From positions 1 through 29,016 of the forward strand of contig JAKACL010000004.1 of assembly GCA_021821425.1 (NCBI GenBank): a stretch of 29,016 bases of DNA, in the 5' to 3' direction. Position 1 is the stretch's first letter, and each line of letters begins with the position of its first letter. This document shows positions 13,966 through 22,849 of the stretch, piece after piece. Made by a program: the position numbers and the translations under genes. The stretch comes from Pseudomonadota bacterium. Lineage in GTDB: Bacteria > Pseudomonadota > Gammaproteobacteria > Burkholderiales > Thiobacillaceae. The notes beneath the pieces are model-generated. The model was given only the letters and a program-made list of their open reading frames with translations. It was not told the DNA's origin and ran no database searches.

Positions 13966-14868
13966 CTAGATTAATTGGGCGTGACGCAAGGCGTCACGAA
14001 CGGTGTCATGCAATCCGGCAGACAGCGGGGTCATCGGCAGGCGCAGACCGGACGGGATCAGACCCAGTTCGGCGCATGCCCACTTGACCGGGATCGGGTT
14101 GGCTTCCACAAACAGCCTGCTGTGCAGCGGCAGCAACGCATTGTTGAGCTCACGCGCACGCGCGAGGTTCCCCTCGAACGCCGCCACGCACATCTGGTGC
14201 ATCATTTTCGGCGCGACGTTGGCGGTGACCGAAATCACGCCATGACCGCCCAGCAACATGAAAGGCATGGCCGAGGCGTCGTCGCCGGTATACAGCAGAA
14301 AATCCCTGGGCGCGCGGCGCACCAGATCGGCTGCGCGCTCCATGTTGCCGGTGGCGTCCTTGATGCCGACGATGCCGGGCACCTGCGCCAGGCGCAGCGC
14401 CGTGTCGTTCGACAGATCGGCCACTGTGCGTCCCGGCACGTTGTACAGGATCAGCGGCAGGTCGACCGCCTCGGCGATTTTCCTGTAATGCTGGAACAGG
14501 CCTTCCTGCGTCGGCTTGTTGTAGTACGGCACCACCGACAGGCCGGCCTGCGCACCGGCGGATTTTGCGCATTCGGTCAGTTCGATCGCTTCGCGGGTGG
14601 AGTTCGCCCCGGTGCCCGCGATCACCGGCACCCGGCCGGCGGCCCGCTCGACCGCAACGCGGATCAGCTGGCAGTGTTCGTCGAAATTCACGGTGGGCGA
14701 TTCGCCCGTGGTGCCGACGACGACGATGCCGTCGGTCCCCTCCGCGATGTGCCAGTCGATCAGTTTCTGCAGCGACCCGATATCGAGCGCGCCATCGTCG
14801 GACATCGGGGTGACGATGGCAACCAGGCTGCCTCGGGGCATGTTCATCTCTGCCATCTTGTTGGCCAT
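13966..14868 (-). CDS. dapA: 4-hydroxy-tetrahydrodipicolinate synthase DapA
   Basis: A 300-residue cytoplasmic enzyme condensing pyruvate with aspartate semialdehyde, the first committed step to diaminopimelate and lysine. The Schiff-base lysine is K170 (GIKDATG). The proton-relay residues are T53/T54 (GTTGESPT), Y116 (VVPYYNKP) and Y142 (LYNVPGRT), with R147 for substrate binding. All are offset by 9 from E. coli numbering, so the true start may be Met10 ([13 protein letters not shown]), Met5 or Met8; the ribosome site does not settle this. It lies 97 bases after fliR, with no recognisable promoter of its own, and is followed by bamC. Confidence 0.96.
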
Positions 14869-14965: not shown

Positions 14966-15715
14966 TCATCTTGCGACGAGCGCGGCCAGCCAGACGCCCA
15001 GTTGCCCGATGCCCGGGCCCATGGCCTGCGTGACCAGCGGCACCGCCCACACCCAGGCCGCCATCAGCCCCAGCGCCGCCAGCCCCAGTCCGACCGAAAA
15101 CATGTCCAGCCCCGGCGTGGTGCGCGCCACAATGCCCAGCGCCAGCTGGATCAGCAGCGCCAGCGCCACCAGCGGCAGCGCCAGTTGCATGCCGACCGCA
15201 AACAGCCAGCCGGCGGCTTCGGCCAGCTGGCGCAGATCGGCCGCGGCCGGCAGGCTGGCGACCGGCATTGCCGCAAAGCTGTCGCGCAGTGCGCTGACCA
15301 CCATCAGGTGGCCGCTCGCCGCCAGGAAGGCCAGCGCCGCCAGCCAGCCCGCCAGCGCACGCCAGGCGGCGTCGGCCGGCCCCGCCTGTTCGGCGGTCAG
15401 CATCAGGAGGCCGCCGGTGGCGGTGTGGCCGGTCCACACCAGCGCAGCGCTCACCGCGGCGAACACCAGCCACACGCACAGTGCCAGCGCCGCTCCCCAC
15501 AGGAAAGCCAGGCTCAGCGCCAACAGACCCGGTACGGTAAACGGCGCGAGTTCTCCGGCCGCCACGCCCGGCGCCAGCACCGCGGCCAGCACCGCGGCGA
15601 TGAACAACCGCAAAACAAGCGGCAGCCGGCCCGCCAGCGGATCGAACACGATCCAGCCGGCGACGCGCGCAAACGCAAACAGCCAGACCGAGACGCCCGC
15701 TTCGGTCAACGGCAT
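14966..15715 (-). CDS. fliR: Flagellar-type export gate protein FliR
   Basis: A 249-residue polytopic inner-membrane protein, the FliR/SctT subunit of the helical export gate that it builds with FliP and FliQ. About six hydrophobic segments are visible, and the conserved blocks VWLFAFARVAGWIVFDPLAG (N-terminus) and ALLIQLALGIVARTTPGLDMFSVG (about 185-208) match the family. The sequence is very rich in Ala and Leu and seems diverged between these blocks. It is the last gene of the operon, starting 1 base after the fliQ stop. FlhB, the usual downstream partner, is not here. Confidence 0.88.
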   Translation of the reverse strand: MPLTEAGVSVWLFAFARVAGWIVFDPLAGRLPLVLRLFIAAVLAAVLAPGVAAGELAPFTVPGLLALSLAFLWGAALALCVWLVFAAVSAALVWTGHTATGGLLMLTAEQAGPADAAWRALAGWLAALAFLAASGHLMVVSALRDSFAAMPVASLPAAADLRQLAEAAGWLFAVGMQLALPLVALALLIQLALGIVARTTPGLDMFSVGLGLAALGLMAAWVWAVPLVTQAMGPGIGQLGVWLAALVAR

Positions 15716-15716
15716 C

Positions 15717-15971
15717 TCATTCGATCAGGCCGGGGAAATCGGTGAGCAGGGTCCGCGCAAACTCGACCAGCTGGCCGCCCATCCAGCTGCCCAGCACCAC
15801 CAGCACGACCGCCATGATCAGCAGCTTGGGCACGAACGCCAGCGTGGGTTCGTGGATCCGCGTGGCGGCCTGGAACAGGCTGACCGCAAACGCCACCAGC
15901 AGCCCCGCCAGCAGCAGCGGGGCCGCAATCATCAGCGTCAGCCAGAGGGCGTCGCGGGCCAGGCCTTCCAT
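15717..15971 (-). CDS. fliQ: Flagellar-type export gate protein FliQ
   Basis: An 84-residue protein with two membrane helices (about 13-33 and 50-70). The sequence SLFQAATRIHEPTLAFVPKL between them is the FliQ/SctS signature; the family length is 86-90. It is hidden inside a longer frame that reads upstream antisense to nothing real. The ATG at 15971 is set by the fliP stop, sharing one base in TAATG, a coupling arrangement typical for fliP-fliQ. It forms the export gate with FliP and FliR. Confidence 0.92.
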   Translation of the reverse strand: MEGLARDALWLTLMIAAPLLLAGLLVAFAVSLFQAATRIHEPTLAFVPKLLIMAVVLVVLGSWMGGQLVEFARTLLTDFPGLIE

Positions 15972-16699
15972 TAAAAACTCCCGAGCAGCGAGCCGACCAG
16001 CAGATACCAGCCGTCGACCGTGACGAACAGCAGCAATTTCAGCGGCAGCGACACCAGTTGCGGCGGCAGCATGATCATGCCGAGTGCGGTCAGCACCGCG
16101 GCCACCACCAGGTCGATCACCAGAAACGGCAGCACCACCATGAAGCCGATCTGGAAGGCCGTCTTCAGCTCGCTGGTGAGGAAGGCCGGCGCCAATGCGG
16201 CCAGCGGCACCGTGTCGACCTGACGCGGATCGATGGTCTTGTCGTCGCCGATGAAGAGATCGAGGTCCTCGGCGCGCGTCTGGCGCAGCATGAAATCCTT
16301 CAGCGGCGACGACGCCTTCCCGGCCGCTTCGTTGAACGAAAGCGACCCCGCCAGGAAAGGCTGATAGGCCTCGGCGTCGATGACTTTGAGCGCGGGCGAC
16401 ATCACGAAGATCGTCAGCAGCACCGCCAGCCCCATCAGCACCAGATTGGGCGGCGCGGTGGGGCTGCCCAATCCCTGGCGCAGCAGGAACAGCACCACCG
16501 CAATCCGGGTAAAGGCCGTGAACGCCAGCAGCAGGGCCGGCAAAAACGGAAACAGCAGCAGCCACGGCAGGCTCGCGCCCGGCACGCCGATCACCTGCCC
16601 GCCTTCTCCGGGCGTCACCGACAATAGCGGCACGTTCGCGTCCGCGCCGAGCGCGGGCAGGCTCAGGCCCAGCGCCGCCAGCAACAGGATGCGCTTCAT
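15971..16699 (-). CDS. fliP: Flagellar-type export gate protein FliP
   Basis: A 242-residue inner-membrane protein with a cleavable signal peptide (MKRILLLAALGLSLPALGA). Conserved FliP features include AFTRIAVVLFLLRQGLGSP, LVLMGLAVLLTIFVMSPAL, AYQPFLAGSLSFNEAAGKAS, FMLRQTRAEDLDLFIG, FLTSELKTAFQIGFMVVLPF and the C-terminal LLLFVTVDGWYLLVGSLLGSF. The family length is 240-255. The start overlaps the fliO stop in ATGA. The residues around the periplasmic loop and gate are well kept, so the gate looks functional even though other parts of the apparatus are atypical. Confidence 0.95.
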   Translation of the reverse strand: MKRILLLAALGLSLPALGADANVPLLSVTPGEGGQVIGVPGASLPWLLLFPFLPALLLAFTAFTRIAVVLFLLRQGLGSPTAPPNLVLMGLAVLLTIFVMSPALKVIDAEAYQPFLAGSLSFNEAAGKASSPLKDFMLRQTRAEDLDLFIGDDKTIDPRQVDTVPLAALAPAFLTSELKTAFQIGFMVVLPFLVIDLVVAAVLTALGMIMLPPQLVSLPLKLLLFVTVDGWYLLVGSLLGSF

Positions 16700-17082
16700 T
16701 GCGCGCGCTCCGTCCGCGAGTTCGCGCTTGCGGCCGGTTTCGGCAGCGTGTGCAGCAGCCGCACATTGCCGCCGCCCACGCCCAGCATCAGCCAGGTGTC
16801 GTCGATCTCGACCACCACCACGCGCTCGCGCGGCCCCACCGCCGTCGTGGCCACCACTTTCACCACGCCCTGCGCGCCCATGCCCGGCAGGTAGCGGCGC
16901 GCGAACCAGGCCACCGCGACGAAGCCGCCGAGAATCAGCGCCAGGCTGAGCAGCACGGTGAACAGCCCGCCGGCCATGTCGGGCGGCGCAGCAAGCGCCG
17001 CAGCCGGGGTCAGCAGCAGCGCGATGGCCGCAATGAGGAGAGGTGTCATGATCGGTCGGGTCCGGTTCGTGTGCTTATCCAT
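16696..17082 (-). CDS. fliO: Flagellar-type export apparatus protein FliO
   Basis: A 128-residue single-span membrane protein that assists FliP complex assembly. After an N-terminal signal-like segment (from Met12, MTPLLIAAIALLLTPAAALA), there is a membrane helix around 40-60 (LFTVLLSLALILGGFVAVAWF), then the FliO cytoplasmic domain: VVKVVATTAVGPRERVVVVEID, WLMLGVGGGNVRLLHTLP. The start at 17082 overlaps the preceding gene by 8 bases and has GGTGA at a plausible distance; Met12 at 17049 is an alternative. It overlaps fliP by 4 bases. Confidence 0.88.
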   Translation of the reverse strand: MDKHTNRTRPIMTPLLIAAIALLLTPAAALAAPPDMAGGLFTVLLSLALILGGFVAVAWFARRYLPGMGAQGVVKVVATTAVGPRERVVVVEIDDTWLMLGVGGGNVRLLHTLPKPAASANSRTERAQ

Positions 17083-17536
17083 GGCGAATCACCCCGCGCG
17101 CCCAGCGCGTCAGATCGGCGGGCTGCGGCGGCAAGGCCAGGTCCAGTGTCGCCTGCGCGAGATCGGTGCCGAGTTGCCATGCGAGCGCGGACGGCAGCGG
17201 ATCCGCTGCGGGTTCGTCGAGCCAGCTTTCGGCCAGCACCGCGTCCAGCGTGCGCATCAGCGCGGCCGGCACGAAGGGCGAGGCGCCCGAGACGCGCCGG
17301 CCGCCGAGCCGGCGGGTCAGCCACAGCGTGGCGAGCGCCGCATCCGGCTGCCAGACCGGGATCGCCGGCGCGGCCGACGGTGCGACGGCCGGCAGCGGCA
17401 GCGCGCGCACCGGCAGGTGCAGGCGCGCGGTCAGCGTCGCGGCGAGGCGGCGGGTCAAGCGCTGCGGGAAGGCGTCGGATACGACGACCGGCGTCGTCAG
17501 GAAAGCGGTTTCCGCCGGCGTCAGTTCAAGCAGCAT
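17075..17536 (-). CDS. Unrecognised 153-residue protein between fliJ and fliO, possibly FliM/SctQ-related
   Basis: I do not recognise this protein with confidence. It occupies the place where fliK, fliL, fliM and fliN normally stand, overlapping fliJ by 11 and fliO by 8 bases, so it is surely translated with the operon. It has no membrane span, signal peptide or cysteine. Residues about 65-105 read ALATLWLTRRLGG, then FVPAALMRTLDAVLAESW. This resembles by eye the part of FliM/SctQ middle domains where a GG turn is followed by a helix ending near EAW. No SpoA (FliN-like) domain is visible. It may be a reduced C-ring or sorting-platform component; this is inference. Confidence 0.8.
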   Translation of the reverse strand: MLLELTPAETAFLTTPVVVSDAFPQRLTRRLAATLTARLHLPVRALPLPAVAPSAAPAIPVWQPDAALATLWLTRRLGGRRVSGASPFVPAALMRTLDAVLAESWLDEPAADPLPSALAWQLGTDLAQATLDLALPPQPADLTRWARGVIRHG

Positions 17537-17990
17537 CCCAGACCTCCCGCGTGCCCGCTTCGCGGCGATGCATCAACTCCACCAGCTCGTCGTGCTCGCG
17601 CTGTTCGGTGCGGCGCTGCTGCACGGCCAGGTGGGCCAGGTGGCGCTGCTCCAGCAGGCGCAGCGCCTTCACCCGCTGTTCGACCTGCATCCATTCGGCC
17701 AGCCGCGCCTGCCAGGCCTCATGCGCGGCATCGATGTCGGCCTGCGCCGCCCGCATTTCGGCCGCCTGCACCTGCTGCAGGCGATTCGTCTCCTGCAGCC
17801 GCGCGGCGCTCACGCCCGCGCGCAGCTCGCCGGCCAGTTGCGCGATGCGCGCGTCGCGCAGCGCGACCAGCTGCACCTGATGGCCGCGTGCGCGCAGCCA
17901 GATGCCGTGCGCGAGCTTAACCGAACGCGACAGCATTTCGCTGCGCCGTTCGGCCAGCTGCAGCACGCGCGCCAGCGAAAAGCCTTTCAT
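17526..17990 (-). CDS. fliJ: Flagellar-type export chaperone-ATPase stalk protein FliJ
   Basis: A 154-residue, almost wholly alpha-helical protein. It is rich in Ala, Leu, Arg and Glu, with heptad-like spacing through most of its length, fitting the coiled-coil hairpin of FliJ that inserts into the FliI hexamer. The N-terminus [20 protein letters not shown] is typical of the family. Assignment rests on this N-terminus, length and position directly after fliI (ATGA overlap); FliJ sequences are poorly conserved. Confidence 0.85.
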
Positions 17991-19384
17991 GCCAGCACCT
18001 CATCGAGTCCGGCGCGCGACGATTCCAGCGTCGCGCGCTCGCGCATGCCCTGCATCAGGTAGCCCTGCATCCTCGGGTACAGCCGCACGCCTTCGTCCAG
18101 CACCACGTCGGCACCCGGCACATAGGCGCCGACGGCGAGCAGGTCGCGACTGCGCATGTAGCGCGAATAGAGATACTTGAAGCGACGGGTGCGCTCCAGC
18201 GCATCGTCGGACAGCAGGTCGGGCTGGGCCCGGCTGATCGAGGCCTCGATGTCGATCGCCGGGTAATGGCCGGCATCGGCGAGGTCGCGGGTGAGCACGA
18301 TGTGGCCGTCGAGAATCGCACGCGCCGCGTCGGCGATCGGATCCTGCTGGTCGTCGCCTTCCATCAGCACGGTGAAGAACGCGGTGACCGAACCGCTGCC
18401 GCTGCGGCCGTTGCCGGCGCGTTCGGCCAGCTGCGGCAGCTTGGCGAACACCGACGGCGGATAGCCCTTGGTGGCGGGCGGCTCGCCGATCGCCAGTGCC
18501 ACCTCGCGCTGCGCCATCGCGTAGCGCGTCAGCGAATCCATGATCAGGAGCACGTGCTTGCCCTGATCGCGAAAATATTCGGCGATCGACATCGCATACG
18601 CCGCACCGTTCAGGCGCATCAGCGGCGGATGGTCGGCGGGCGCGGCCACCACCACCGCGCGCGCCATGCCCTCCGCGCCCAGGATCTGGTCGATGAATTC
18701 CTTGACCTCGCGGCCGCGCTCGCCGATCAGGCCGACCACCACCACGTCGGCTTCGGTGTAGCGCGCCATCATGCCGAGCAGCACGCTTTTTCCCACGCCG
18801 CTGCCGGCGAACAGGCCGAGCCGCTGGCCGCGCCCCACCGTCAACAGGCCGTTGATCGCGCGCACGCCGACATCCAGCGTCTGCCGGATCGGCGCGCGCT
18901 CGAGCGGATTGATCGGGCGGCTGTACAGCGGCACCCGGCGTTCCAGCGACAACGGACCGAGGCCATCGAGCGGTCGCCCGGCGCCATCGAGCACGCGTCC
19001 GAGCAGACGCTCGCCCACCGGCACGTGGCGCACGCGGTCGTGCGCGCGGCGGCGCGGCACATAGCGCGTGCCCAGGCGCGGCGGCTGCGCCACCATCGGA
19101 TTGTCCGGGACCACGCGCGCGCCCGGCATCACGCCATAGGTGTCGGTGGCCGGCATGATGAACAGGCGCTCGCCCGAGAAACCCGCCACCTCGGCCTCGA
19201 TGCTCTGGCCGCCGGGCACCTGGATATGGCACTGGCTGCCCACCGGGAGGCGCACCCCCACCGCTTCCATCACCAAGCCGGACACCCGCGTCAGGCGTCC
19301 GGTGACCGTGATCGGCGTCGCCCAGTTCACTGCCCGCCGGCAGTTGGCCAGGTATTCGCGCAGGCGGACGATGCGCTCGCTCAT
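17987..19384 (-). CDS. fliI: Flagellar-type export ATPase FliI
   Basis: A 465-residue cytoplasmic ATPase, related to F1 beta, which unfolds and feeds export substrates. Walker A is GSGVGKS (194-200, with K199). [14 protein letters not shown] (218-231) holds the catalytic glutamate region, Walker B is [10 protein letters not shown] (278-287), and the C-terminal signature includes [19 protein letters not shown] chose ATG 19384 because [12 protein letters not shown] begins the family domain and the codon overlaps the fliH stop in ATGA; the longer upstream frame is a shadow of fliH. All catalytic motifs look intact, so the export motor should be energised. Confidence 0.96.
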
Positions 19385-19992
19385 TCGATCCAGTTCTGGT
19401 TGGAGCCGAGCACCTGCACCACCTGGCGCCAGCGTGCCGGCAGGGTGGCATCGAGCTCGCCCTGCGGGGTTTCGATCAGGCAGCCGCCGCGCACCATGCG
19501 GACATCTTCCACGATGCGCAGACGGGTCTTGTCCAGCACCTGGTCGAGGTGCGGACGCACCAGCATGGCGTCGTCCGGATGCAGCAGCAGGCGCGCTTCG
19601 CGGCTGGACTCGGCCATTTCCTTCAGTGCCAGGTTGACGACGTCGAGCACGCGTTCCGGCCGCGCGGCAAGTTCGCCCGCCACCACCTGGCGCGCCACGT
19701 CGAGCGCGAGTTGCAGCAGCATGTCGGCCAGTCGGAAATCGAGGTTGTCGAGCGTGGTGTTGAAGCTTTCGGCCAGTTGCTTCATGCGGCCACACGCCTG
19801 CTCGCCCTCCTGCCGGCCGGCGGCCAGGCCTTCGGCATAGCCTTCGTCGCGCGCGGCCTGGCGCAGCCGCGCCAGTTCGGCCTCGAGGTCGGCGGCCGGC
19901 GATACCGCCTCGGCGGACGCAGCCAGTTCCACCACCTCCCACTGCTCGAATGCCGTGGTGTCATCGGTCGAGGGGTCGTCTTGCGTACTCAT
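19381..19992 (-). CDS. fliH: Flagellar-type ATPase regulator FliH
   Basis: A 203-residue cytoplasmic protein that links the FliI ATPase to the C-ring. The first 30 residues are acidic and include W18. Residues about 36-65 are a helix with [14 protein letters not shown], the GxxxG-type repeat characteristic of FliH. The C-terminal half (about 85-200) is the FliH/V-ATPase E-type domain with [16 protein letters not shown] and [11 protein letters not shown], and ends in a family-like [20 protein letters not shown]. It overlaps fliG and fliI by 4 bases each. The conserved N-terminal region normally binds FliN, which is not encoded in this cluster. Confidence 0.92.
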
Positions 19993-20957
19993 GCCGCCTC
20001 CTCTTCTTCGGGATACAGAATCGCGCCTTCCGCCGCCAGTCGCCGCAGGGTGGCGCCGGCTTCATCCTGCGCCGCCTGGATCACGGTGACCGGCACCACG
20101 CCCAGCGTATCAAGATCGACCCGCATGCGCTGCGCCGCAGTCGGGCTCATCACCGCGGCCAGCGCGTCGAGCACCTGCCCGTCGCTGCCCTTCAGCGCAT
20201 GCAGCAGGGTACGCGCACCGACATGACGCAGGAAGGCCTTGCGGCTCGCCTCGGGCAGCCGCGCCAGATCCTCGAACGCGAGCGTGCGCACGCGCAGGCG
20301 CGCGGCCAGCTCCGCATCGTTGCGGTCGAGCTGGCTCAGCGCGGCCGCCGCGCTGCCTTCGCTCATCTGTCCCAAGAGGCCGGCGACCGCCGCCTCGCCC
20401 TGCAGCGACGCGGACGCATCGAGGCTCCTCAGCCAGTCGTCCAGTTCGCGCAGCATCTCTGAACTGGGCGCTTCGCTGTGCGCCAGGCTCATCAAAACTT
20501 CCGCGCGGATTTCGCCGGGCAGCATTTCCAGCACGGCGGCGGCGACATCGCGCGGCAACTGGGTCATCACCACGGCGATCAGCTGCGGCGGCTGCGCTTC
20601 CAGCAGGCCGGCGATTTCGGCCGGCTCGCGCCAGGCCAGTTTGTCCAGCGCCTGCGCGCTGCTTGCCCCCAGGCGCTGCAGCATCGCCTGCACGTGTTCG
20701 GGGCGGAAGGCTTGCTTCAAGGCCTCGTCGAGGAAGCGTCCGGTGTCGGCGGCAAAGCCGGTCTGCTCGGCCGCTTCGCTGGCGTAGTCATGCAGGATGG
20801 CACGCACGCGATCGCGCGGCAGCACGTCGAGTTCGCGCATCGCACTGCCGAGCCGGCTGACCTCGAGCGGGCTCAGGTAGCGGAACACCGCAGCCGTCGC
20901 CTCTTCGCCCAAAGCGAGCAGCAGCGCGGCGGATTTTTCGATGCCGGCCTGGCTCAT
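19989..20957 (-). CDS. fliG: Flagellar-type rotor/switch protein FliG (divergent)
   Basis: A 322-residue protein with the full three-domain length of FliG. The N-terminal domain (1-100: GIEKSAALLLALGEEATAAVFRYL) binds FliF, the middle domain contains QPPQLIAVVMTQLP in place of the usual EHPQ motif, and the C-terminal domain has LLHALKGSDGQVLDALAAVMS. Aligning by eye with E. coli, the lysine equivalent to K264 is kept, but positions corresponding to R281, D288 and R297 appear to be Thr, Val and Pro; only D289 remains. These charged residues interact with the stator. The C-terminus is a run of glutamates. ATG 20957 overlaps the fliF stop as ATGA. Rotation may be weak or absent. Confidence 0.9.
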   Translation of the reverse strand: MSQAGIEKSAALLLALGEEATAAVFRYLSPLEVSRLGSAMRELDVLPRDRVRAILHDYASEAAEQTGFAADTGRFLDEALKQAFRPEHVQAMLQRLGASSAQALDKLAWREPAEIAGLLEAQPPQLIAVVMTQLPRDVAAAVLEMLPGEIRAEVLMSLAHSEAPSSEMLRELDDWLRSLDASASLQGEAAVAGLLGQMSEGSAAAALSQLDRNDAELAARLRVRTLAFEDLARLPEASRKAFLRHVGARTLLHALKGSDGQVLDALAAVMSPTAAQRMRVDLDTLGVVPVTVIQAAQDEAGATLRRLAAEGAILYPEEEEAA

Positions 20958-22330
20958 GCGCGCATCCACAGCCGGATCACATCCGCCGTCACGCGCGGAT
21001 TGGCCATCACCTGATTGCGCGTGGCGTCGAGCTCGGCGTCGAAATCCGCCTCCACCGCCGGCGCTTCGGGCGGCGGACCGCGGCGGCGCCAGATCATCAT
21101 GACGAGCAGCGCCAGCAGTGCCGCGACGGCCACCAGCGCCCACGGCGGCAAGGCCTGCCAGGCCCAAGCTGGCGCCAGCGGACGCGCCGGCGACACGCGC
21201 GGAACCGAGACCGGTGCCGAGGCCGCCGGCGGCGCATGCTCGAGCGCTTCGGCCGGCGCCCGGTCCTCTGCGGCGGCGGACGGCGCCGCCGTCGGCAGGG
21301 CATAGACGTTGACGCTGTCGCCGCGCGCCGGCTCCAGGCCCAGCGCCTGTTGCGCCAGCTGCCCCGCGCGCTGCAACTCCTCCGCGCTGGCGTCGAAGCC
21401 GAGAATCACGATGGCCTGGATGCGCTCGATGCGCCCTTCCGGCTCGCGCGTGGTGCGCACGCTTTTTTCCAGAGGATGCGCCTTGCCCGCCACCACGACG
21501 TTTTGCACGCGCTCTACGGTCTGCCGGATTTCGCTGTCGTCCAGCGTGGCGGTCACCTGCACGCTGACGCGGTCCTCGCCCAGCCAGGGCGTCAGCACCG
21601 CGAGCACACGCCGCACCAGATCCTGCTCCAGCGCCAGCCGCTGCGACTGCACCGGCTCGGGCACGGCCTCGCCCAGCAGCATGCCGCTCGGAGCGAGCAC
21701 CTGCACTTCGCTGCGCTTCATGCGCGGCACGCTGGCCGCCACCAGGGTCTGGATCGTCGTCACCTGCTCGGGCTGCAGGTGCGCGCCCGGACGCAGCCGC
21801 ACCAGCACCGCGGCGGTGGCGGGCGGCGCATCGCGCAGGAAAGGCGACACTCTGGGCAGGGCGAGATGCACGCGCGCCAGCTCGACCGCTTCCAGGGTCT
21901 GGATCGACCGCGCGAGTTCGGTTTCGAGCGCGCGCTGAAAACGCTGCTGCTCCTGCAGCGACGACGCGCCAAAGCGCGGCGCGCGCTCGGCTTCATCCTG
22001 AGCGTCGGCATCGGAACGGGGCAGACCGCGCGCGGCCAGACGATAGCGCGCGGCATGCAGGCGGTCGGCCGGCACCTCGATGCTGCCGTCGACGGCGGAC
22101 AGGCGGTAGGGAATGTCGAGCTGTTCGAGCGCGGCGATGACTTCGCCGCCGGAACGGTCGGACAGCTGCGCGTACAGCACGCGGTAGACAGGCGGGGTAA
22201 ACCACAGATACGCCGCGGCCAGCGCGGCCAGCGGCAACAGCACCAAGAGCGCGAACGTGAAGCGGCGCAGGGGACTCGCTTCGGCGATCAGTTCGCGCAG
22301 ACTGCTCAGCCAGCCCGGCACGGGAAACAC
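20954..22330 (-). CDS. fliF: Flagellar-type MS-ring protein FliF (short form)
   Basis: A 458-residue inner-membrane ring protein, about 100 residues shorter than usual FliF (about 550). Membrane helix 1 is at about 24-44, the YscJ/FliF ring domains follow (YRVLYAQLSDRSGGEVIAAL at 49-68; ARVHLALPRVSPF at 152-164), then a ring-building domain, a proline/alanine-rich segment (345-390) and membrane helix 2 at about 395-413. The C-terminus NPRVTADVIRLWMRA resembles the FliG-binding tail. The part between SVQVTATLDD and RIQAIVILGFD is only about 45 residues, so the beta-collar seems reduced. The listed GTG has no good ribosome site; GTG three codons later (22321) has GAGGTG 6 bases upstream and may be the true start. 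Confidence 0.9.
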   Translation of the reverse strand: MFPVPGWLSSLRELIAEASPLRRFTFALLVLLPLAALAAAYLWFTPPVYRVLYAQLSDRSGGEVIAALEQLDIPYRLSAVDGSIEVPADRLHAARYRLAARGLPRSDADAQDEAERAPRFGASSLQEQQRFQRALETELARSIQTLEAVELARVHLALPRVSPFLRDAPPATAAVLVRLRPGAHLQPEQVTTIQTLVAASVPRMKRSEVQVLAPSGMLLGEAVPEPVQSQRLALEQDLVRRVLAVLTPWLGEDRVSVQVTATLDDSEIRQTVERVQNVVVAGKAHPLEKSVRTTREPEGRIERIQAIVILGFDASAEELQRAGQLAQQALGLEPARGDSVNVYALPTAAPSAAAEDRAPAEALEHAPPAASAPVSVPRVSPARPLAPAWAWQALPPWALVAVAALLALLVMMIWRRRGPPPEAPAVEADFDAELDATRNQVMANPRVTADVIRLWMRA

Positions 22331-22395: not shown

Positions 22396-22401
22396 ATTAT
22401 A
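22396..22401 (-). promoter_or_regulatory. Possible -10 element upstream of fliF
   Basis: The minus strand reads TATAAT here, a perfect -10 hexamer, overlapping the sixA stop and 66 bases before the fliF GTG. No matching -35 is found at 16-18 bases (the sequence is CGCTGT), so it may need an activator or be fortuitous. The flagellar-type operon otherwise has no obvious promoter and could also be read from sixA. Confidence 0.3.
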
Positions 22402-22849
22402 ACCAGTCAGGCGCGGCCACAGCGCGCAAAACCACCTGCATCTGTCCGGCCCGCTCGCGGCCCTGAAACCACCAGATGCCGCCTTTTTTTACCGTCAGGT
22501 CGCCCGCCTGTCCGGCCAGCAGGCGCATCGCCACCTGCCCCAGCGTGGGCTGATGGCCGACGATCAGCACCGGATACGCCGCATCCGGCCAGCCTGCCAC
22601 CGCCAGCACATCCTCGGCGCTGGCGCCCGGCGCCAGCGCCGGCACCTGGTCGTAGTAGCGTCCCAGCGCCTGTGCCGTTTGCAGGGTGCGCGTGGCGGGG
22701 CTCACCAGCACGCGGATGTCCGGCGGCAGGCGCGGGTTGAGCCAGTCGGCCATGCGCGAGGCCTGCTTGCGGCCCTTGTCGGTCAGTTCGCGTTCGAGGT
22801 CGGGGATCGAATCGTCCGCCTCGGCGTGCCGCCACAAAATGAGTTCCAT
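22397..22849 (-). CDS. sixA: Phosphohistidine phosphatase SixA
   Basis: A 150-residue histidine-phosphatase-superfamily protein; SixA dephosphorylates phosphohistidine in phosphotransfer proteins such as HPt domains or nitrogen-PTS components. The catalytic R7-H8 lies in LILWRHAEAD, with Ala9 instead of the more common Gly of RHG. Further ligands are R54 (SPATRTLQTA) and H99 (LIVGHQPTLG). The length is near the E. coli form (161). The ATG has an AGGAG ribosome site. It lies 19 bases after the CYTH-CHAD gene on the same strand and is probably in one transcript. Confidence 0.93.
   Translation of the reverse strand: MELILWRHAEADDSIPDLERELTDKGRKQASRMADWLNPRLPPDIRVLVSPATRTLQTAQALGRYYDQVPALAPGASAEDVLAVAGWPDAAYPVLIVGHQPTLGQVAMRLLAGQAGDLTVKKGGIWWFQGRERAGQMQVVLRAVAAPDWL

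Follow-up and report, generated by a model that had tools for sequence, protein, structure and literature searches.

The DNA analyzed here (29,016 nucleotides of contig JAKACL010000004.1, assembly GCA_021821425.1, from a member of the Thiobacillaceae; this whole stretch is referred to as the window) carries on its minus strand a compact operon of flagellar-type export genes, fliF-G-H-I-J-X-O-P-Q-R, flanked by sixA and dapA and placed by the ends of the open reading frames (ORFs). The closest FliF among the genome contigs (91% identical) belongs to Thiobacillus sp. C5_concoct.bin.9 (L001), and the window organism is Thiobacillus-like by its sequence. The features are listed below, the suffix 2 marking genes of the system under study (aa, amino acids).

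20954..22330, minus strand: fliF2, short MS-ring protein of 458 aa (Pfam, NCBIfam, alignment, tree)
19989..20957, minus strand: fliG2, diverged FliG with N, M, and C domains present (Pfam, alignment)
19381..19992, minus strand: fliH2, ATPase regulator (Pfam, NCBIfam)
17987..19384, minus strand: fliI2, export ATPase (NCBIfam FliI_clade1 cut-off passed; motifs)
17526..17990, minus strand: fliJ2 (above the Pfam cut-off, below the NCBIfam cut-off)
17075..17536, minus strand: gene X, putative mini-FliM in the fliM slot, without a SpoA domain (predicted fold)
16696..17082, minus strand: fliO2 (Pfam, NCBIfam)
15971..16699, minus strand: fliP2, export pore, GMIMLPP versus GMMMVPP in Escherichia coli (Pfam, NCBIfam, alignment)
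15717..15971, minus strand: fliQ2, export pore (Pfam, NCBIfam)
14966..15715, minus strand: fliR2, export pore (Pfam, NCBIfam)
22397..22849, minus strand: sixA, flanking housekeeping gene outside the system (name read from the sequence)
13966..14868, minus strand: dapA, flanking housekeeping gene outside the system (name read from the sequence)
22396..22401, minus strand: candidate -10 box (TATAAT) 5' of fliF2, a weak call

Neighboring genes overlap by 4 bases at the F/G, G/H, H/I, I/J, and O/P junctions, by 11 bases at J/X, by 8 bases at X/O, and by 1 base at P/Q, while fliQ2 and fliR2 are separated by a gap of 1 base. Nine of the ten operon proteins (FliF, G, H, I, J, O, P, Q, and R) exceeded the Pfam cut-offs; NCBIfam returned matches for the same nine, with only FliF, FliI, FliO, and FliP above the curated cut-off. 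An initial annotation of the window had described this gene order, the near-universal overlaps of 1 to 11 bases, the borders formed by sixA and dapA, a short FliF, and a diverged FliG, all of which were borne out. It had also listed fliE, fliK, fliL, fliM, and fliN as missing. In the operon, the only place where they were sought, fliE, fliK, and fliL were not found; FliM appears to be reduced to gene X rather than wholly absent, as judged from the predicted fold. Stator genes (MotAB/PomAB) and injectisome secretin and needle genes were likewise not found in the operon, to which these searches were also confined. Since the candidate -10 box overlaps the stop codon of sixA, its conservation is partly coding.

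The short FliF was present in at least 60 of the 117 genomes of the family (five as fragments), in 3 of the 300 genomes of the order (G008, G011, and G241, all of the same family), and in only 1 of the 369 genomes of the class (G008), each count being among the matches listed; short frames in G222 and G013 (order) and in G498 and G449 (class) were left undecided. A deep clade (G241, G401 to G406, and G408) carries the same operon with FliFs that are 38 to 50% identical; on contigs long enough to show it, ppk, dapA, and bamC-like genes again lie nearby, and the gene order is retained in both clades. In a FliF tree of 63 rows (rows shorter than 330 aa and duplicates were dropped), 22 short FliFs formed a single clade (support, 100/100) apart from the 41 other rows, and the FliF1 of the canonical Thiobacillus flagellar set fell among ordinary flagellar FliFs; the tree was flagged for long branches and for unusual composition in 12 short rows. 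One contig filed under a Rhizobium metagenome-assembled genome (L009) carries the Thiobacillus operon and groups with Thiobacillus thioparus in this tree, which is probably a binning error. Some loci differ in gene content (names of the genes concerned were read from the sequence). A glucose-6-phosphate dehydrogenase-like gene lies between fliR2 and dapA in T. thioparus (L008, 17453-18847) and Thiobacillus denitrificans (L011, 15403-16833) and is missing from the window; FAD oxidoreductase-like and cytochrome c-like genes lie between fliQ2 and fliR2 in two deep-clade genomes (L140, 7298-8977; L214, 2299-3941), and other ORFs are inserted there in L219.

Statements at the genome level rest on relatives of the window organism, including 11 genomes reached through operon-type loci. 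Ten of these contain two FlhAs (G011 contains one) and two FliFs, one long (ORF of approximately 550 aa) and one short; in G011, the two FliF matches sit at the ends of contigs and were interpreted as the two parts of a single short FliF. The same 10 genomes carry a single set of six flagellar rod matches (Flg_bb_rod, PF00460), one FliM and one FliN (PF01052) on the contig with the long FliF, and flagellin matches (Flagellin_N, PF00669), none of which were found in G011. The flagellin matches share a contig with the long FliF or with the rod set, apart from those on G010:C57 and G009:C44. Judging from these domain matches, the genomes searched contain no second rod/hook set and no second FliM/FliN with a SpoA domain. 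In T. thioparus DSM 505, the canonical cluster (L053) runs in the usual order from fliF to fliR, and its fliK, L, M, and N positions are occupied. The canonical Thiobacillus set shares the orders fliF-J...O-R and flhB-A-F-G-fliA with the second system, and the homologs of the two are 28 to 68% identical (FliJ and FlhG gave no match). However, only the canonical set includes FliM, FliN, genes in the fliK/fliL positions, the rod/hook set, a full FlhB with the NPTH motif, an FlhG with Walker A, and a FliF with the collar segment.

In T. thioparus DSM 505 and the other relatives read, the second FlhA is encoded in a separate locus (flhB2-flhA2-flhF2-flhG2-fliA2), apart from the window-type operon and amid housekeeping genes. 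FlhA2 is full length, and FlhB2 comprises the membrane part only: in all 14 type 2 FlhBs, the PF01312 match ends at position 241 to 248 of 335, and the NPT of the autocleaving NPTH domain, present in 4/4 type 1 FlhBs, is missing. No type 2 FlhB was found in 2 of 16 genomes (G399 and G404). Five of five rod-bearing genomes searched (L053, 6173-6466; L201 to L205) encode, in addition, a separate small protein whose match is confined to the C-terminal domain of FlhB, and one FlhA copy (G002:C44:14802-16660) is split over two frames, representing either a sequencing error or a broken gene. The QAxGL motif of FlhG activates FlhF. Type 2 FlhG ORFs were selected by this motif, and its presence is therefore not counted as a test; Walker A is missing from all 11 of these FlhG2-like ORFs and present in both type 1 FlhGs, and the two FlhG2s tested gave no Pfam match above the cut-off. 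The P-loop of FlhF2 is retained in the six copies read. The last gene of the locus, fliA2, encodes a sigma-28 factor, and the sequence TGCTA(G/A)ACT precedes flhB2 in 12 of the 12 sequences read. A strict FliA-type pattern (TAAA-N14-16-CGATAA) yielded 20 matches in 12 genomes versus 47 in the reversed control, and no substrate was named from it; the pattern is probably uninformative, because flagellate G008 also had none. At six deep-clade loci, fliA2 is directly followed by a conserved ORF of approximately 80 to 90 aa (L206, 6106-6351; L207, 6337-6576; L208, 14333-14572; L209, 7781-8053; L211, from 8085; L212, 6030-6275), which in L210 lies farther from fliA2 in two copies (18712-18951). The one copy tested had no Pfam match, and the ORF was not found at the other loci examined; as it is limited to deep-clade loci, it was set aside as an anti-sigma factor candidate.

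We examined 18 genomes from the short-FliF set (13 with one FliF match plus G404, G405, G406, G408, and G011; G406 has a second, weaker FliF match whose sequence was not read). Fourteen had no rod match, and 11 of the 18 (10 plus G011) combined this lack with the type 2 FlhA only, the FlhA type being assigned by bit score (825 to 841 versus 888 to 909 in complete copies). Three rod-less genomes fall outside the 11: G365 has no FlhA, G397 has only a type 1-like FlhA, and G386 has a further FlhA that is split. The short FlhB adjoins FlhA in 10 of the 11 genomes (in G399, FlhA starts 203 bases from the contig start), and a separate FlhB C-domain protein was found in none of the 11. That so many genomes should apparently lose the fli, flg, and flh loci together and yet keep both type 2 loci is unlikely to be an accident, and the persistence of the second system in relatives without a detected rod gene suggests that it has a separate function.

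The initial annotation had put forward two readings, a reduced second flagellar system or a secretion machine derived from the flagellum, and expected FlhA and FlhB to be encoded elsewhere if it works. Given the separate FliF clade, the separate canonical set in 10 of the 11 genomes, and the retention without rod matches, a second reduced system is supported, and in relatives FlhA and FlhB are indeed encoded at a separate locus. The short FliF does not fall inside the single ordinary flagellum of relatives, and the window-type gene order recurs across both clades. The proposal is amended in two respects: FliM is reduced, and secretion itself is a proposal.

FliI2 scored 644.2 bits against FliI_clade1 (cut-off, 619.1) and 480.7 bits against III_secr_ATP (cut-off of 604.75 not reached), and FliP2 scored 233.3 bits against fliP (cut-off, 217.45) and 163.8 bits against yscR (cut-off of 208.6 not reached), while just passing the general model PRK12797.1 (181.5 versus 179). 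By these model scores, FliI and FliP are flagellar rather than injectisome (SctN/SctR) proteins. FliI2 in the window retains the motifs GSGVGKS and IGERGREV, and the nucleotide motifs are intact in 10 of the 10 copies scanned. All 22 FliP2 copies read have Ile (Val in L218) in place of the central Met of the pore motif GMMM, unlike E. coli FliP and two Thiobacillus FliP1s; a changed sealing of the gate is possible.

In the alignment, FliF2 (458 aa, versus 543 to 552 aa in three canonical copies) has lost the collar segment together with most of the cytoplasmic linker; it retains the C-terminal segment, to which FliG binds in flagella. The first of the lost parts forms the cylindrical collar in Salmonella (PMC8092281). 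FliG2 reached 142.8 bits against TIGR00207, for which the cut-off is 226.7. Its changes in the window are EHPQ to QPPQ, R281 to T, D288 to V, and R297 to P, with K264 and D289 retained; these charged residues serve torque in flagella, and EHPQ is the contact of FliG with FliM. Across the aligned copies, R281 is lost in 23/23 and D288 is V in 8/23, and none of the 15 Thiobacillus-clade copies has kept R297, a position occupied by R or K in all 8 deep-clade copies. The EHPQ contact reads Q(P/A)PQ in all 15 Thiobacillus-clade copies and is mostly intact in the deep clade. The torque face of FliG2 is, by its residues, altered and not erased.

The proteins encoded by gene X (152 to 159 aa) have a predicted fold resembling the CheC-like middle domain of FliM in two clades, the domain covering the model from residue 13-22 to residue 141-148. 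X was read at seven of the eight deep-clade loci (the eighth contig stops before it). The C-terminal SpoA domain and the N-terminal CheY-binding segment are missing from X, and there was no PF01052 match at the X locus. The GG pair of the FliM GGXG motif is present in all X sequences aligned or read, with the exact GGXG in a few deep-clade sequences only (L216, P0245, and P0254); since GGXG is not cleanly retained, its covariation with EHPQ of FliG is suggestive only. Gene X is apparently a FliM cut to its middle domain (i.e., a mini-FliM), according to the structural models.

Ratios of nonsynonymous to synonymous substitutions (dN/dS) were calculated with our own Nei-Gojobori script (window versus L001 for the operon; G008 versus G006 for the second locus). 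Eight of the ten operon genes gave values of 0.015 to 0.23 (FliI, 0.015; FliQ, FliP, and FliH, 0.07 to 0.10; FliR, FliG, FliJ, and FliF, 0.13 to 0.23), and the five second-locus genes gave values of 0.016 to 0.21 (FliA2, 0.016; FlhA2, 0.039; FlhB2, FlhF2, and FlhG2, 0.12 to 0.21). The flanking genes dapA and sixA gave values of 0.05 and 0.19, respectively. Most of the system is, on these codon comparisons, under purifying selection.

On balance, we favor the reading that the operon encodes the inner half of an old type III export apparatus, the second one in these bacteria, which derives from a flagellum but no longer builds one. More tentatively, the gene content may point to a distinct nonmotile organelle derived from the basal body, i.e., a rod-less and switch-less export station in the inner membrane that has a FliF/FliG/mini-FliM ring, is placed by FlhF, secretes into the periplasm, and is coupled to a sigma-28 regulon of its own, possibly through export of an anti-sigma factor. 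FlhF, FliF, FliG, the gate, and the ATPase are the first-assembled parts of a polar flagellum. The parts retained would accordingly be those assembled earliest, and those lost would be the parts serving switching, lengthening, and substrate change. In the favored reading, FlhF2 would position the ring, probably at a pole; FliG2 and the mini-FliM would make a short ring without switching and probably without rotation; and substrates would dock at FlhA2 and pass through the inner membrane by way of the gate. With no rod or outer rings, they would end in the periplasm; with no early-to-late change of substrates, the FlhB switch domain would be dispensable; and FliA2 would probably drive the substrate genes.

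Several observations weigh against this reading. The rod-less genomes are drafts that may be incomplete, and loci do drop out of such assemblies: G380 has six rod matches and no long FliF, G397 has a type 1-like FlhA and no rods, and G404 has the short FliF and no type 2 FlhA or FlhB. In FliG2, K264 is retained in 23/23 copies and D289 in 22/23, and deep-clade copies keep most charged residues, with EHPQ intact in 6 of 8, so that rotation would still be possible judging by FliG2 alone. The link between X and FliM comes from folds alone, with a best Foldseek E value of 0.008. The sequence comparisons were negative: the window X and seven further X proteins gave no FliM match in Pfam, the window X gave no NCBIfam match, and hhalign of X (A1) against two FliMs gave a probability of 0.1% with shallow profiles. 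Constraint is weaker on X (dN/dS, 0.43) and FliO (0.65). Finally, deleting a short loop of the FlhB cytoplasmic domain abolishes secretion in Salmonella (PMC3640470), and loss of this domain could mean no export at all. Since the domain matters for Salmonella export, a nonsecreting polar scaffold stays a serious rival, although we consider it rather unlikely. Such a hub of ring, gate, and FlhF/FlhG/FliA would position polar structures or tune sigma-28 activity. It would fit the loss of the FlhB switch/docking domain in all 14 type 2 copies, the retention of FlhF and FlhG-like proteins, the lack of evident substrate genes among the ORFs read beside either locus, and the inner-membrane structure related to the flagellar type III secretion system, of undetermined function, that was seen by cryo-electron tomography in several species (PMC9380563). 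However, the strong constraint on FliI and FlhA and the intact ATPase motifs are hard to square with a structure that transports nothing.

The remaining explanations appear improbable. If the system served as the base of membrane nanotubes or in exchange between cells, as reported for type III secretion family members in other bacteria, it would use FliP, FliQ, FliR, FlhA, and the membrane part of FlhB, all of which are present, and nanotubes are mentioned in PMC9380563; yet the ring, ATPase, FlhF, and sigma factor are retained as well, and a nanotube model would need none of them. It is still harder to see the system as an accessory of the ordinary flagellum (e.g., a regulating or localizing helper): the two occur together in 10 of the 11 genomes, but 11 genomes have the system with the type 2 FlhA only and no rod match. 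A decaying relic of a second flagellum seems hardly credible, since the low dN/dS values at both loci and the gene order retained in both clades oppose it, despite the many missing flagellar parts, the faster evolution of X and FliO, and an internal stop in one short FliF copy (G380) of the 60 listed.

If the more tentative organelle reading is right, the system would be a living case of a flagellar export core retained for a purpose other than building an appendage. The system bears on an old question in the evolution of secretion systems and flagella, i.e., what use an export core could have once rod, hook, and filament are gone. It is a natural case that extends across a family and is found in cultured, free-living members (T. 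thioparus DSM 505 and T. denitrificans RG), usually with a canonical flagellar set in the same genome as a built-in control. It also raises the question of how the gate can operate when FlhB has no switch domain, and it apparently includes a C-ring protein reduced, in the predicted models, to the part that contacts FliG.

No description of a second or reduced flagellar system in Thiobacillus was found among the best-ranked papers listed from the open-access literature, as covered by titles and abstract openings, with subscription papers outside the search. One of the closest likenesses is Lysobacter enzymogenes OH11, which is described as retaining flagellar export genes that are active without a flagellum (PMC7277350 and PMC9927559). 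There, flhB and fliI are needed to secrete heterologous flagellin, and other functions are reported (PMC7277350 and PMC9927559); the export genes also affect twitching (PMC7277350). Since the test flagellin is secreted, a flagellum-less export set can evidently stay active. The Lysobacter system is described as potentially vestigial (PMC7277350 and PMC9927559), whereas that of Thiobacillus usually stands beside a canonical flagellar set and, compared by description and not gene by gene, is set apart by its truncated FlhB, mini-FliM, and own FlhF, FlhG, and FliA. Buchnera, an endosymbiont with a 600-kb genome, similarly retains basal bodies with export machinery in a role given as undetermined (PMC8109811; gene set compared by description only); unlike these, the second system of Thiobacillus has no rod/hook set of its own. 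A hat-shaped structure at the inner membrane is also tied to the export core of flagella, and densities on its cytoplasmic side have been assigned to FlhA; it is described from cryo-electron tomography only, with no gene set assigned, and its hat is not FliF in Helicobacter pylori (PMC9380563). The parts of the Thiobacillus system are known ones; among the open-access papers listed, none showed their combination: a second lineage usually found beside the flagellum, retained without rods, with a truncated FlhB, a mini-FliM, and a sigma-28 factor of its own.

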